From the NCBI GenBank assembly GCA_025054525.1, contig JANWZJ010000004.1, positions 14,092 through 68,783 on the forward strand: a DNA stretch of 54,692 nucleotides, read 5' to 3'. The notes under the pieces were generated by a model that saw only the letters and a program-made list of their open reading frames with translations, was not told where the DNA came from and ran no database searches. How positions within the stretch are numbered: position 1 is the first letter of the stretch; every line of letters starts with the position of its first letter. Shown in pieces: positions 28,897 to 34,501 of the stretch. The position numbers and the translations under genes are program-made. Source of the stretch: Bacteroidia bacterium. Its GTDB lineage: Bacteria > Bacteroidota > Bacteroidia > SpSt-205.

Positions 28897-29697
28897 TTAA
28901 TGAAGTCGCTCGCGTGAAAAGTAAGCATACACTATGCGGTCCATGAATATGGGCGCAAGCCGATGCAGCCATACCGTAAGTTTCCCTTGCGTAGTGAGCA
29001 AAAGGTACTTTTTGCCTGTAAGCATAGCATGATAGATGTGTTGAGCCACTTCTTCGGCGGTCATGAGTTTCTCTTCGGGTAGGGGCGTTTCTCCATGAGG
29101 ACGCCCGTGTGCATCTAAAGCTCTCATGCGAATCGCACTGCGTGTAAAACCTGGCGCCGCAATCAATACTTTTACGCCTGTCCCATAGAGTTCGGTGCGC
29201 AGTGCTTCTAAGAACCCGTTAAGGGCGAACTTAGAAGCGCTGTATCCACTGCGCGCCGGCAGCCCCCGAAACCCCGCAATGGAAGAAATGCCTACAATCC
29301 AACCTCGCTGCCTCTTGATTTCTGGGAGTGCTGTCTTGATTACATGGACTGCTCCCCAAAAGTTTACCTCCATCACTTCTCGCAGGACGGAAAGGTCTAC
29401 CTCTTCTACTGTGGCGCGGTGGGAAATACCTGCGTTTGCAATCACAGCATCCAGCCTACCAAAACGCTCCAATATCTGTGCATAAGCCCTTTCACAAGCA
29501 GCGTAATCCCGTACATCGGCTACAAGGGGCAATATCCTATCAGGAGCGGCACCCGCCAAAGTGTGAAGAGGGGCTTCGCTACGGGCAAGTGCTGCGACAT
29601 TCCATCCTTCTGCGACGAGCTTTCGGGTCAACGCTTCTCCTATACCAGAAGAAGCGCCCGTAACCCAAGCTACTCTTCCTTGTATTTGGATGGACAC
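28897..29697 (-). CDS. Short-chain dehydrogenase/reductase
   Basis: 266 aa, classical SDR. The NAD(P) motif is VTGASSGIGEAL (about 13-24), NAG at about 90 (IANAGIS), the catalytic Ser in VGISSIAG (about 138) and YSASK (about 152-156). The C-terminal extension has basic and aromatic residues. Substrate unknown. Its start overlaps the ccmE end by 28 bases, so the two are cotranscribed. Confidence 0.9.
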   Translation of the reverse strand: MSIQIQGRVAWVTGASSGIGEALTRKLVAEGWNVAALARSEAPLHTLAGAAPDRILPLVADVRDYAACERAYAQILERFGRLDAVIANAGISHRATVEEVDLSVLREVMEVNFWGAVHVIKTALPEIKRQRGWIVGISSIAGFRGLPARSGYSASKFALNGFLEALRTELYGTGVKVLIAAPGFTRSAIRMRALDAHGRPHGETPLPEEKLMTAEEVAQHIYHAMLTGKKYLLLTTQGKLTVWLHRLAPIFMDRIVYAYFSRERLH

Positions 29698-30032
29698 TTC
29701 ATGAGAATTTTCTCAGCGATGAATAGACTATCTTGGGCATATCCTATTAGAACAACCTTCTGAGCCGCTTCAAAGTTGATGGGCATAGGGTCGGGATACC
29801 GAACCCGACGAATAGTACCCACTGTGTCTTGCGCCCAGAACCAGAAAGCGTCTTGGGTGGGGTCATAGAAGGCATCTTCTCGTCGTATCCAGCTTGCTAC
29901 TACATGATAGGTAGTTCCTGGTTTCTGGGCTGCCTTTTGGAAATCTGTGTATAGACTCACCTCCCGAGGAAGCTGAAGAATGAGCAGTGCCAATATAACC
30001 CCCACCACCACTGCTCCCAGAAGTAGCCGCAT
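29670..30032 (-). CDS. ccmE: Cytochrome c maturation heme chaperone CcmE, CxxxY type
   Basis: 120 aa. N-terminal signal anchor (RLLLGAVVVGVILALLILQL), then the OB-fold domain (about 40-112) and the heme-binding region MKCPSKYKEE. In proteobacterial CcmE the heme-linked residue is His in HxxxY. Here it is C113 with Y117 (CxxxY), a variant described in archaea and some other bacteria. CcmE carries heme in the periplasm for cytochrome c maturation. No other ccm gene is in the window. TAGTTTTG ends 4 bases before the ATG. Confidence 0.9.
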   Translation of the reverse strand: MRLLLGAVVVGVILALLILQLPREVSLYTDFQKAAQKPGTTYHVVASWIRREDAFYDPTQDAFWFWAQDTVGTIRRVRYPDPMPINFEAAQKVVLIGYAQDSLFIAEKILMKCPSKYKEE

Positions 30033-30065: not shown

Positions 30066-30073
30066 TATCTTTG
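30066..30073 (+). promoter_or_regulatory. -7 element of the tRNA-Leu gene
   Basis: Exact TATCTTTG whose last base is 6 bases before the first base of the tRNA. If transcription starts where it does for Bacteroidota promoters, the tRNA precursor has almost no 5' leader. Confidence 0.55.
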
Positions 30074-30079
30074 CTCTGA

Positions 30080-30163
30080 GCCCGGATGGCGGAACAGGTA
30101 GACGCGCCAGTCTCAAAAACTGGTGGAGGCGACTCCGTGCCGGTTCGAGTCCGGCTCCGGGCA
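30080..30163 (+). tRNA. tRNA-Leu (anticodon CAA)
   Basis: 84 bases. The acceptor stem GCCCGGA (30080-30086) pairs fully with TCCGGGC (30156-30162), with discriminator A at 30163. The anticodon stem CCAGT (30107-30111) pairs with ACTGG (30119-30123) around loop CTCAAAA, giving anticodon CAA at 30114-30116 (reads UUG). The long variable arm (GGAGGCGACTCC region) is the class II mark of tRNA-Leu, and the T arm has GGTTCGAGTCC. CCA is not encoded. The TamB reading frame runs open through the whole gene. Confidence 0.95.
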
Positions 30164-33100
30164 CTATTAATCAGGCTGGTCTGGGGGCTATTTTTCACCC
30201 TTGCGGGCGTTGCTTTCCTCATAGAAATAAGTGCCTTGACGCTCAACTTCTTTTTGCGCAGTGAGACGGGAAGGAGTTATATCGTTCATCATCTTCTACA
30301 GGCAATCATCGTCGCCCTACATACAGATGCAGAGGTAGAAGATGTGTGGGTCTCTCCCTCCGGCAAAATCCTTCTCAAAAGACTTACCATTTACGATAAG
30401 GCTTGTGTGCCGTTTATTCGCGTAAAAGAAGCAAAGATTCACTGGATACCTCTCTTTTTCTGGCGCGGCATCTGGAAAGGCAAACTCTATATTCCTCTTT
30501 CATCGATTGAGCTTTACGAGCCGCAGGTTTTGATTTATCAGGAGAAAAATACAGGACTCACTAATATAGATCGCTTGTTTCCAGCGGATACTTCTACCTC
30601 TGAAAGTGCCCCTCTCCGAATAAATCTATCGCATCTGCTTCTCCAAGACGGTACGCTTATTTGGAGAGACTCCACGGCGTCATCTGATGAGCTTCGGGCA
30701 GAACCAGGTTTCTTGCATTATGCACACTTATGGATAGACTCTCTCTCCTTCTCAGGCAGCTTAAGCTGGAATCAAAAGCACTTATTCGCTCGCATCGCGC
30801 GCCTGTCTCTGCGAGAGCGAAACTCAGGTCAGCACATCCAGCAACTCTCTCTGGTATTAGAAGTAAGCCCCCAGCGAACCCTAATATCTGACCTCTCCAT
30901 CGTACTGCCCAAAAGTCATATTAGGGGAAGGGGGATATTCCCGAAAGAAGGACTGGATAAGTTATTTTTGAATACAGAGACGAAGTTTTTTCGAGCATAC
31001 TTGGAGGGGACTATAACGTGGGAAGAGATAGCAGCATTTGCAGGAACATCTCTGCCCCTTCAAGGCTCATGGTATGTACAACTTCCAATTGAAGGAGACC
31101 TTTACTACTTTCATACGCCAAATGCCCATATTCGGTTTTCGGAGGAGGAGTATCTCAAGCTGGAAGGTAGCATTTTTCGGTATGCCCGTCCCTCCTACAT
31201 GCACTGGCAAGCGCATATTTTGGAGAGTTCTCTCTCGCTGGGTAAGCTAAAGGAAACACTACCTCTTCTAGACTTTCCCTCATGGATGAATCAAAGAGTA
31301 CGATTGAACCTTCGCGGCAAACATACAGGCCGCCTTCACACTTATGCTTGGGAGATAGAGAGCGATAGTCTGAAAGTGATCGGGAATATTTCGCTGGAAG
31401 CGGTGTGGCGATATGCTATGGAGTTGAGCTGTGAGGGCTGGCCAGTGTATTATCTCATTCCTGATAGCCCTGTCAGGCAGGTTCGGGGTAAGGTTAGTGT
31501 GAAAGGGCATGGCTTCGCATTAGACTCTCTTGAGAGCTCTTTACAAGTTTTTCTCACCGGTATGGATAGTCTGGGACACTCTTACGCATTGACAAGCGTA
31601 GGAGAAGTACTTCGGGGAAGCTGGCGGGGAAGTCTGTCCTTTGCCCTGCCTCAGGGGCAAATCAGTTTCACAGGTATTCTTGGATTAGGGGGGCGGGGGA
31701 CCTCTAAGGGGTACGGCTACGTAAAAGACCTACAAGCTGCGCTCTGGGGTGGAGAAGGGCGCGTGAATGCCGACTTTGGGCTACAAGCGCCTGCTCCTTT
31801 ATGGCAGCTTAGAGACCTTACTTTGACTTTGTCTAACGCCAGCTGGCGGAGAGGAGATATTGTTCAGAACCTCCCAGCCGCTACTATCAAACTTTACTCT
31901 ACAGACCACTTAGTGGTGGAGGGGGAGAGGGTTCAGCTCGCTTTTGAGGGAATCGGTCCCTGGCAGAAATCTCTCAGACAGGAATGGGCGGTATGGCAGA
32001 AATGGATAGAAACAGGTATTTGGCAAAGAGACTCCGCCCTTGAGAAGTTTGCTCTGAGGATAGAGGGGCGGGGGCGCGGTTCGGAGTGGTTAGAATTAGC
32101 GGGTTTCCCGGATTTGCATGTAGGGCAGTGGTGGATTCGCCTGCTGGCTGATGCAGACTCCCACGCAACCCATCTTAGCTTAGAGGCTCACTGGGACACG
32201 CTGGACCTGCAAAACATCCATCTATACCAGGCCGCTATTCAAGCCCACACTCAAGACGAACTGTTGGGGTTTGTTTTTTCTTCCTCTGCGGGGAAAGCGG
32301 GCATTCAGTATGATAGCCTCTTTCTATCGCTGGATGGGATACCTGCGAGCGGACATATCACGGGTTACTACAAGCTGCCCTATAAAGAAGGAGAACTCTT
32401 TTTGCCTATGCGCTGGACTCGCAGTGCTGGTTCGCCGTGGATATGGCTTTCTTTGGAGGAGGTCTCCCATGCCTTTCGGTTAGTGCTTCATGGGAGGCAG
32501 TGGCGCTTATATGAGGCTTCCGATGTAGGCATAAACCTACCCACCAGAGAATGGGAACTCCGAGAACTGCGCCTCCAGAGTGAAAACTCGCTCTTTCATC
32601 TCTCCCATCGGTTGGATACAACCTTGGTAGAACTGGAAAACTTACCGATGGAAGCTATGCTGGCAGCCACAGGCATCGAATTACCAGTAGTAGGACTAAT
32701 CTCGGGCCGCTGGTCCAGTACCCAAGATACCTCGGACTTTTTTATCCAGATAGACTCCCTACATTACTACGAGCAGCCCTATCCTACCTTGCGGCTTTTA
32801 GGAACGGTCTTTCGGGACAGGGTGAATATCCACGGCGAGGCTAAGGATAAATCCCACGCATACTTCGTGGGATTAGGGAATTATGAACTCAAAGATACGA
32901 TTGCGCCGCTCTCTCTGGATTTATACAGCTTGCGGGTGCCGGTAGAATGGCTCAAGCCTTTCACCGAAGAGTATCTACAAAGTCTGAAGGGAAGCTTCTT
33001 TTCCCAGCATGTGGCGATTCGGGGGAGCTTGACCAATCCTCAAATCCTCGGAAAGGTAACCCTTCAGGATGTGAGCTTTTATGTGCCGTTTTTACGAGGC

Positions 33101-34501
33101 GTCTATAACTTGAGTGGCAACCTACTTATCAAGGGAGATAGCCTTTACCTTCAACGCGATACTCTCTGGCTGAGATATACAGAGTCAGAACAGGTAGGCA
33201 ATAAACGAGCCTTACTCTCAGGAGTTATTCACTTGAAAGAATGGCAGGATATTCTACTCAATCTGCGCCTGAATCTACTGGATCACCCCTTCCCAGTGGG
33301 AGACATTCCTGCTTCGGCAGAGACCTATGTGTATGGAAAAGCAGAATTAGATGAAGCGGACATTGTGATTCAAGGGGATTGGCGCAATCTCTCTGTGGAA
33401 GGAGATGCCCGATTCGCAGAGAGAACCTATCTTACCTTACCGCTACAACTGTATGAGCGTCAGCAGAGCACTTCTCACATTCGGTTTGTAGGAAACAGGG
33501 AAACCCAGGCTGCGACTATTACCCCTGCCGGCTCGCCGCGAGGCATGTCTCTGCGCATAGCTTTGTCTTCGGTACCTCAAGCGCGATTTAGAATTCTCTT
33601 TGATGAAAGGACTGGAGATGAAATTATAGCCAGTGGAGAGGCTCGTTTATTGCTTACTTTATCTCCTACAGGGGAGCTTGGCTTATCGGGTTCTTATGAG
33701 GTGCAAAATGGCGAGTATGATATCAATCTACAAAGCGTCATTTCCAAAAAACTCATATTGGAGCCAGGCGGGCAAATCCGATGGCAAGGGGATATTTACG
33801 GAGGGCAGTTAGACCTTACAGCAGTGTATAAAACTCGTACTTCTCTGAGGGCCATAGATACCAGTTTCAGCTATACGCTACCTGTGGAAGTCAAAGTACG
33901 AATACAAGGTAGCTTGCTTGCACCTACGATGCGTTTCCAGATAGAAATCCCCTCGCTCACAGGCACTCCCACACCAGCCATCAGCCTCTTCTTGCGAAGA
34001 ATAGCTTCTGATGAGCAAGAGCGAAACCGTCAAGCTTTTGCCCTGATGGTTTTAGGGAGTTTCGTTCCGTTGGAACGGGGATTCGGTGGTAGGCAGGTAG
34101 GGGGTGGTGTAAGTTCTACGCTGGCAGAGTTCCTCTCCGCTCAACTAAGTAGCTGGGTAGGGCAAACCTTAGGGAGCAATATGGGGGTGTCTTTTTCCTT
34201 AGGGCAGTGGAACCAGCTCTCTGCTCAAGTGAATCTTTCGCTGGGGCAACGACTAACCATAGAGCGAGAAGGGGTCCTCATCGGATCAGGACAGCGTTCT
34301 GCTAACTTAGGCAATCTCTCTGCCCAGTATCGGATTTTGCCAGCGCGAATTATCAGTCCGACGCAGTGGCGCTTAGAGGTGGAAGGGTTTAGTCGCCAGA
34401 CATTCCTGTGGGGTACGGCTACCAGCAGCAGTCAGGGCATAGGACTTCGCTTAGAGAAGAGTTTCTATCCGCCTCCTCGTCGTCGTCGCATTATGCGTTA
34501 A
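30137..34501 (+). CDS. TamB-like translocation/assembly protein (start uncertain)
   Basis: About 1450 aa. One N-terminal signal anchor (LVWGLFFTLAGVAFLIEISALTLNFFL, encoded at about 30176-30256), a very long periplasmic beta-rich body with AsmA/TamB-type repeats, and a C-terminal DUF490/TamB domain (YEVQNGEYDINLQSVISKK, TPTPAISLFLRRIASDEQERNRQAFALMVLGSF, LGQRLTIEREG). TamB-like proteins bridge the inner and outer membranes, carrying lipid or helping outer-membrane protein assembly. The start is a problem: no ATG, GTG or TTG lies in frame between the tRNA end (30163) and the anchor. The GTG at 30137 (T arm of the tRNA) and the ATG at 30086 lie inside the tRNA gene, and the TTG at 30236 would delete the anchor. 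A CTG at 30176 is another option. The product call is firm, the start is not. Confidence 0.8.
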   Translation: MPVRVRLRALLIRLVWGLFFTLAGVAFLIEISALTLNFFLRSETGRSYIVHHLLQAIIVALHTDAEVEDVWVSPSGKILLKRLTIYDKACVPFIRVKEAKIHWIPLFFWRGIWKGKLYIPLSSIELYEPQVLIYQEKNTGLTNIDRLFPADTSTSESAPLRINLSHLLLQDGTLIWRDSTASSDELRAEPGFLHYAHLWIDSLSFSGSLSWNQKHLFARIARLSLRERNSGQHIQQLSLVLEVSPQRTLISDLSIVLPKSHIRGRGIFPKEGLDKLFLNTETKFFRAYLEGTITWEEIAAFAGTSLPLQGSWYVQLPIEGDLYYFHTPNAHIRFSEEEYLKLEGSIFRYARPSYMHWQAHILESSLSLGKLKETLPLLDFPSWMNQRVRLNLRGKHTGRLHTYAWEIESDSLKVIGNISLEAVWRYAMELSCEGWPVYYLIPDSPVRQVRGKVSVKGHGFALDSLESSLQVFLTGMDSLGHSYALTSVGEVLRGSWRGSLSFALPQGQISFTGILGLGGRGTSKGYGYVKDLQAALWGGEGRVNADFGLQAPAPLWQLRDLTLTLSNASWRRGDIVQNLPAATIKLYSTDHLVVEGERVQLAFEGIGPWQKSLRQEWAVWQKWIETGIWQRDSALEKFALRIEGRGRGSEWLELAGFPDLHVGQWWIRLLADADSHATHLSLEAHWDTLDLQNIHLYQAAIQAHTQDELLGFVFSSSAGKAGIQYDSLFLSLDGIPASGHITGYYKLPYKEGELFLPMRWTRSAGSPWIWLSLEEVSHAFRLVLHGRQWRLYEASDVGINLPTREWELRELRLQSENSLFHLSHRLDTTLVELENLPMEAMLAATGIELPVVGLISGRWSSTQDTSDFFIQIDSLHYYEQPYPTLRLLGTVFRDRVNIHGEAKDKSHAYFVGLGNYELKDTIAPLSLDLYSLRVPVEWLKPFTEEYLQSLKGSFFSQHVAIRGSLTNPQILGKVTLQDVSFYVPFLRGVYNLSGNLLIKGDSLYLQRDTLWLRYTESEQVGNKRALLSGVIHLKEWQDILLNLRLNLLDHPFPVGDIPASAETYVYGKAELDEADIVIQGDWRNLSVEGDARFAERTYLTLPLQLYERQQSTSHIRFVGNRETQAATITPAGSPRGMSLRIALSSVPQARFRILFDERTGDEIIASGEARLLLTLSPTGELGLSGSYEVQNGEYDINLQSVISKKLILEPGGQIRWQGDIYGGQLDLTAVYKTRTSLRAIDTSFSYTLPVEVKVRIQGSLLAPTMRFQIEIPSLTGTPTPAISLFLRRIASDEQERNRQAFALMVLGSFVPLERGFGGRQVGGGVSSTLAEFLSAQLSSWVGQTLGSNMGVSFSLGQWNQLSAQVNLSLGQRLTIEREGVLIGSGQRSANLGNLSAQYRILPARIISPTQWRLEVEGFSRQTFLWGTATSSSQGIGLRLEKSFYPPPRRRRIMR

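Follow-up and report, generated by a model that had tools for sequence, protein, structure and literature searches.

Where does translation of a large TamB-like protein begin when its reading frame runs uninterrupted through a tRNA gene and offers no ordinary start codon between the end of that tRNA and the protein's own membrane anchor? The question is raised by the junction of a tRNA-Leu(CAA) gene and a tamB-like gene in a 54,692-nucleotide stretch of DNA from a Bacteroidia bacterium, the whole of which is referred to here as the window. The argument turns on the following features:

30066–30073, forward strand: TATCTTTG, a Bacteroidota −7 promoter element; the predicted transcription start lies at about 30078, tRNA position −2.
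30080–30163, forward strand: tRNA-Leu(CAA) gene, called by ARAGORN and marked by compensatory pair changes across 11 species; CCA is not encoded.
30086–34501, forward strand: TamB-like open reading frame counted from the ATG in the tRNA, stop codon included (open reading frame listing; Pfam PF04357, E = 7.7e-35).
30086–30088, forward strand: ATG at tRNA nucleotides 7–9 in the TamB frame, kept in 10/10 in-phase species and cheap to open in nascent RNA; the favoured, putative start codon.
30125–30129, forward strand: GGAGG in the tRNA variable arm, 7 nt before the GTG; Shine-Dalgarno-like on direct reading, probably just the stem of the arm, Shine-Dalgarno motifs not being enriched in genome G006.
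30137–30139, forward strand: GTG at tRNA nucleotides 58–60 (start of the T arm) in the TamB frame, kept in 10/10 in-phase species and costly to open; the candidate alternative start codon.
30164–30235, forward strand: 24 TamB codons 3' of the tRNA without ATG, GTG, TTG or stop, covering the N-terminal membrane anchor.

The TamB domain (PF04357) scores 121 bits in the window protein against a Pfam cut-off of 22.4, and the relatives' proteins are likewise above it. With its C-terminal TamB domain, N-terminal anchor and about 1450 residues, the protein resembles other members of the family, from which its mode of translation start alone would set it apart. The tRNA-Leu(CAA) is, judged from its conservation, a genuine gene of functional type: the cloverleaf is kept across 11 sequences, with three pairs changed on both sides and none broken, and the single-contig genome G006 carries one copy among the 44 tRNAs found. 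The discriminator is A30163, and ARAGORN places the end at 30164 because it counts in the next C.

The TamB frame is open from 30080 to 34501, which leaves a TamB-like frame of 1445 codons beyond the tRNA, and the only canonical in-frame starts 5' of the anchor, ATG 30086 and GTG 30137, lie within the tRNA itself. The best hydrophobic segment spans codons 2–20 after the tRNA (30167–30223), and the first ATG, GTG or TTG 3' of the tRNA is the TTG at 30236, codon 25; a start there would therefore lose the anchor, as an earlier note made from the sequence of this DNA had pointed out. The same note had listed ATG 30086, GTG 30137, CTG 30176 and TTG 30236 as candidate starts, all with correct coordinates, to which ATC 30170 and AGG 30173 can be added as further near-cognate codons. 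A start 5' of the tRNA was considered and ruled out by the in-frame TGA directly before the tRNA in the window, together with the promoter element found there. On the minus strand, a small CcmE-domain protein (29670–30032) is divergent from the tRNA-tamB promoter, its start being 47 nt from the tRNA.

We compared the junction across eleven genomes of the genus, the window included, one further genome of the family and one of the order, the relatives of the window genome being hot-spring metagenome-assembled genomes (KatS3mg025, KatS3mg026, SKW and SKY bins). Scanning of the genome contigs by alignment yielded 15 loci, and scanning with a single window protein gave no matches. The same tRNA-Leu(CAA) lies directly 5' of tamB, in the same phase, in nine other species (G001–G006 and G008–G010), so that the earlier claim of a frame open through the whole tRNA, with no usual start before the anchor, holds in the window and in all nine of these species. 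The distances are considerable: the window TamB is 39–43% identical to the full-length proteins of the other in-phase species, and terminal branches measure 0.5–2 changes per site. In 10 of the 11 genus members the phase is nevertheless the same and the YDK motif lies 76 or 77 codons from the tRNA end, and the sole length change between in-phase species amounts to one whole codon. The TamB frame is free of stops over 240 codons after the tRNA, where the other two frames have 20 and 4, and the first nine codons, which precede the anchor, encode 27 lysines or arginines in the TamB frame versus 6 and 10 in the others. Taken together, phase, stops and spacing across species exclude a frame that is open by chance. 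Selection on the codons just past the tRNA is visible weakly, with a non-synonymous/synonymous difference of 0.73 over the first 10 codons, a value that is mildly below one and saturated.

These comparisons bear directly on two simpler readings. The genomes are metagenome assemblies, and tamB of one of them, G007, has frameshifts, so a sequencing or assembly artefact, which the earlier note had named as a possible refutation, deserved consideration; since ten separately assembled genomes agree, among them a single-contig genome of 2.27 Mb (KatS3mg025), we regard sequencing error as excluded and give an artefact practically no chance. In a second reading, an anchorless TamB would be made from a downstream NTG, the upstream frame being open by chance. 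Downstream NTG codons do occur in every species, but the first ATG, GTG or TTG after the tRNA falls at codons 25, 17, 12, 17, 20, 18, 41, 32, 24 and 14 in the ten in-phase species, that is, anywhere from codon 12 to codon 41; starting there would remove the anchor entirely in G000, G002 and G010 and for the most part in G004. The lysine- or arginine-preceded hydrophobic anchor is kept in 10/10 in-phase species (hydropathy 1.9–2.9 over 19 residues), with no stop in its frame, and we consider an anchorless product very improbable. A usual start before the anchor is absent in 10/10 in-phase species, and the ATG and GTG within the tRNA are the only NTGs held in frame in all ten. Both triplets are ordinary tRNA-Leu sequence, however, and their conservation alone therefore proves nothing.

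Natural controls come from genomes in which the phase differs. In G007 (KatS3mg026), tamB is out of phase with the tRNA and has an ATG, in the TamB frame, about 20 nt past it, the exact phase being uncertain because of the assembly frameshifts in the gene; in G011, tamB stands in another phase and a TTG follows one nucleotide after the tRNA. The search for a clear ATG in relatives, which the earlier note had proposed, thus finds an NTG after the tRNA only where tamB is out of phase, a pattern that would fit a start inside the tRNA. In G012, a thiolase occupies the place of tamB, with its ATG nine nucleotides past the tRNA. Two local peculiarities stand out: the KatS3mg026 gene (L033/L050) is split over three frames, probably by long-read assembly indels, and in G001 (L034) a 12-nt stretch of the tRNA 3' end is repeated in frame immediately behind tRNA-Leu (CGGCTCTGGGCA/G, RLWA-RLWA), a frame-keeping duplication over the tRNA-tamB border.

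How the junction is transcribed can be predicted from the promoter element. TAnnTTTG lies 6–9 nt before the tRNA in nine in-phase species and 15 nt before it in G006, and no such element, which would mark an internal promoter, occurs within the tRNA. In Flavobacterium johnsoniae, the G of the element sits at −5 (PMC6847099); by this rule, transcription is predicted to start at tRNA position −2 to −5, or −11 in G006. With the promoter element just 5' of the tRNA, the tRNA and tamB would share one transcript.

The translation habits of the lineage narrow the choice of start. Ahead of unambiguous starts in 800 kb of G006, Shine-Dalgarno motifs are no commoner than background (GGAGG 2% versus 1–2%), and the 16S 3' end of the same genome keeps CCTCC; its 3' region (L223) reads GGATTACCTCC in place of the usual GGATCACCTCC, the anti-Shine-Dalgarno core being kept though the messages lack the signal. 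In the same 800 kb (regions L055–L094), about 187 promoter-like sites were counted near genes; in 102 of them a start codon follows TAnnTTTG by 4–7 nt, and the spacings peak sharply at 4. Where the two are 4 nt apart, the F. johnsoniae rule has transcription begin at the initial base of the start codon itself, which predicts a leaderless message. At these G006 promoters the start codon is ATG, GTG or, in some cases, TTG; ATT, ATC and CTG are not in excess over the 800 kb. Extrapolating from G006, leaderless-type mRNAs (TAnnTTTG-n4-NTG, no Shine-Dalgarno) would be abundant in this lineage, even though reports describe leaderless genes as rare in Bacteroidota and most messages of F. johnsoniae have a leader (PMC6847099). 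The arrangement recalls the leaderless mRNAs of Actinobacteria and Deinococcus-Thermus (PMC3160421, PMC3848588), with a promoter element at a fixed short distance from the NTG, but the present lineage uses the Bacteroidota TAnnTTTG element.

Against this background, a TamB start at the GUG of tRNA nucleotides 58–60 rather than at the AUG of nucleotides 7–9, possibly aided by the GGAGG or GGGGG of the variable arm, has some appeal: the Shine-Dalgarno-like run stands 7 nt upstream in 10/10 in-phase species, and the resulting N-terminus would be short and positively charged, as is typical of an anchor. The motif is nonetheless at background in G006, the out-of-phase G007 carries the same GGAGG, the run forms the variable arm's own stem, which covaries, and the computed cost of opening the GUG site exceeds 21 kcal/mol at 37 °C. 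The AUG region, by comparison, would cost about 4–5 kcal/mol to open in a nascent RNA of 50–60 nt and 16.7 kcal/mol once the acceptor stem forms (computed at 37 °C), and at 65 °C the costs are of the same order. We therefore see a start at the GUG in place of the AUG as unlikely, if worth keeping in mind. A D-loop codon that reads CAG or TCG in the in-phase species and TAG in the outgroup could be taken as a further sign of AUG use; since unrelated Bacteroidia show every one of these variants, we set it aside as too weak.

The position of genes relative to tRNA 3' ends provides the wider context of the locus. Considering tRNAs without a following tRNA and genes of at least 130 codons that start no more than 8 nt from the discriminator, we counted genes starting 1–8 nt past a tRNA as follows:

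G006 (loci L055–L081): 10 of 34
G000 (loci L125–L150): 11 of 27
G010 (loci L163–L189): 11 of 32
G011 (loci L190–L202): 8 of 15

In G052, a distant member of the Bacteroidia, the count is 0 of 26 (Fisher p from 0.003 to 7e-5, with this one genome as control). An offset of 1 (discriminator, C, NTG) is common among the tRNA-linked genes, and every counted gene with a near start has its NTG within 8 nt. By Pfam, those of G006 include ligA, dxr, rplY (L25), trigger factor (tig), FBPase, prs, OsmC, DUF2480 and a TPR protein, and the pairs tRNA-Val(CAC)-dxr, tRNA-Arg(TCG)-rplY and tRNA-Gln-prs recur in G000, G006 and G010. RNase Z-like proteins, scoring just below the curated cut-off, and an enzyme of the CCA-adding family are encoded. 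We infer that tRNA 3' processing makes leaderless messages in this lineage. Cleavage between the Cs of CCA is reported for Streptomyces coelicolor tRNAs (PMC4681348), and such a cut would yield exactly a leaderless NTG at offset 1.

The genes of this lineage that start right at tRNA 3' ends resemble the tRNA punctuation of mitochondria, in which messages start right at the tRNA 3' end with almost no leader and a tRNA and an open reading frame may overlap. The lineage differs in that the genome is bacterial and of about 2 Mb, the tRNA-mRNA pairs are individual and have their own promoter, and tamB is left without a start codon after the cut. Two ubiA genes show related layouts. In G004 (L159), ubiA lies behind tRNA-Tyr and tRNA-Gly with its frame open through both tRNAs, an AUC at offset 1 and no ATG, GTG or TTG after tRNA-Gly until codon 33, the in-frame NTGs being a TTG and an ATG inside tRNA-Tyr; in G000 (L129/L151), the first NTG of ubiA is 36 nt past tRNA-Gly, and a CTG stands directly at the tRNA end.

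Could tamB, then, be read from a processed message as well? Cleavage at the tRNA 3' end would give a leaderless tamB mRNA on which translation might begin near the 5' end at CUG, AUU, AUC, AUA or even the first codon, whatever it is. The lineage's preference for genes that start right after tRNAs speaks for this, as do the RNase Z-like and CCA-adding genes, the ATC or ATT found 3–6 nt past the tRNA in 4 of 10 species (G000, G009, G006, G003), and the ubiA of G004, with its AUC at +1 and no NTG until codon 33. Yet we searched for a near-cognate start common to the in-phase species after the tRNA and found none shared: the first codons differ (CTA, CAG, CTG, CGG or CGA), G005 has no near-cognate codon among codons 1–13, the early codons of G002 and G004 offer no near-cognate other than AGG or ACG, and the leaderless promoters of G006 lack any excess of ATT, ATC or CTG. 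An NTG directly after the tRNA is absent for tamB in 10/10 in-phase species, unlike about ten other genes per sampled genome. The earlier proposal that processing leaves an mRNA beginning with codons of the TamB frame is thus true of the sequence, but that mRNA would lack any NTG start, and because the other tRNA-linked genes do carry an NTG there, TamB is probably not read from the processed RNA. We judge a non-canonical start on it to be quite unlikely.

Since the other tRNA-linked genes have a near NTG and the only conserved NTGs of tamB are in the tRNA, TamB translation probably starts inside tRNA-Leu(CAA), at the AUG of nucleotides 7–9 or possibly at the GUG of nucleotides 58–60. We favour the AUG, used on nascent transcripts, because it would lie near the 5' end and cost little to open in nascent RNA. 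The model that we infer comprises the use of an internal start, a choice between AUG and GUG, a kinetic competition and, conceivably, regulation. A single promoter just 5' of the tRNA would give a joint tRNA-tamB transcript with a 5' leader of about 8–17 nt to the AUG. A transcript that folds as tRNA and is cut at its 3' end would yield tRNA-Leu and an mRNA without a start codon; if a ribosome loads before the acceptor stem closes, translation would start at the AUG and run through the tRNA into TamB, preventing the tRNA from folding. The GUG could serve as an alternative entry on the same nascent transcript, and the residues encoded by the tRNA ahead of the anchor would number 26 from the AUG or 9 from the GUG. 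Two further considerations count against the proposal: the tRNA fold, once complete, hides both codons and may form fast in a thermophile, which would weigh on any internal start, and leaders of 8–17 nt exceed the commonest 0–3 nt in G006, which weighs on the AUG. That tRNA processing and TamB translation would be mutually exclusive for each transcript, as the earlier note argued, follows from the layout; regulation through these exclusive fates is speculation.

The closest precedent comes from Alphaproteobacteria, where the tRNA-Sec gene selC lies nested within selB, in its 3' part. Its author called it the first case of a tRNA nested in a protein gene of a bacterium (Mukai 2021, PMC8124441), proposed tRNA processing and full protein production as alternatives, and noted selC remnants and losses. 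Both systems place the tRNA on the same strand and in frame with the protein gene, conserved between species (ten here), and both invite the same either-or logic of tRNA processing versus protein production. In selB-selC, the protein gene has a start codon of its own and the tRNA sits at its C-terminal end, whereas the tRNA at tamB would hold the start codon and the N-terminus, and TamB is unrelated to the tRNA's function. In the literature searched, we found no bacterial start codon inside a functional tRNA gene, the selB-selC paper being the sole near case.

As a tentative proposal, which we put forward while leaning somewhat against it, the lineage may have evolved mitochondria-like tRNA punctuation, with housekeeping genes read from leaderless messages that tRNA excision releases. 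The tRNA would have absorbed the tamB start, so that each transcript could either mature into tRNA-Leu or serve the synthesis of the envelope protein, as a fixed ratio device or a switch. If a tRNA-internal start is indeed used, it would have been conserved across large protein divergence, with one RNA serving as tRNA and as the start of a message. Gene callers that forbid overlap with tRNAs would truncate real proteins at such loci. For the hot-spring Bacteroidia that host this arrangement, and for TamB as a large envelope protein, the junction would, if the proposal is true, offer a natural system for the competition between the ribosome and RNA folding and processing over one nascent RNA, and would extend the mitochondrial mode of making messages to free-living bacteria.
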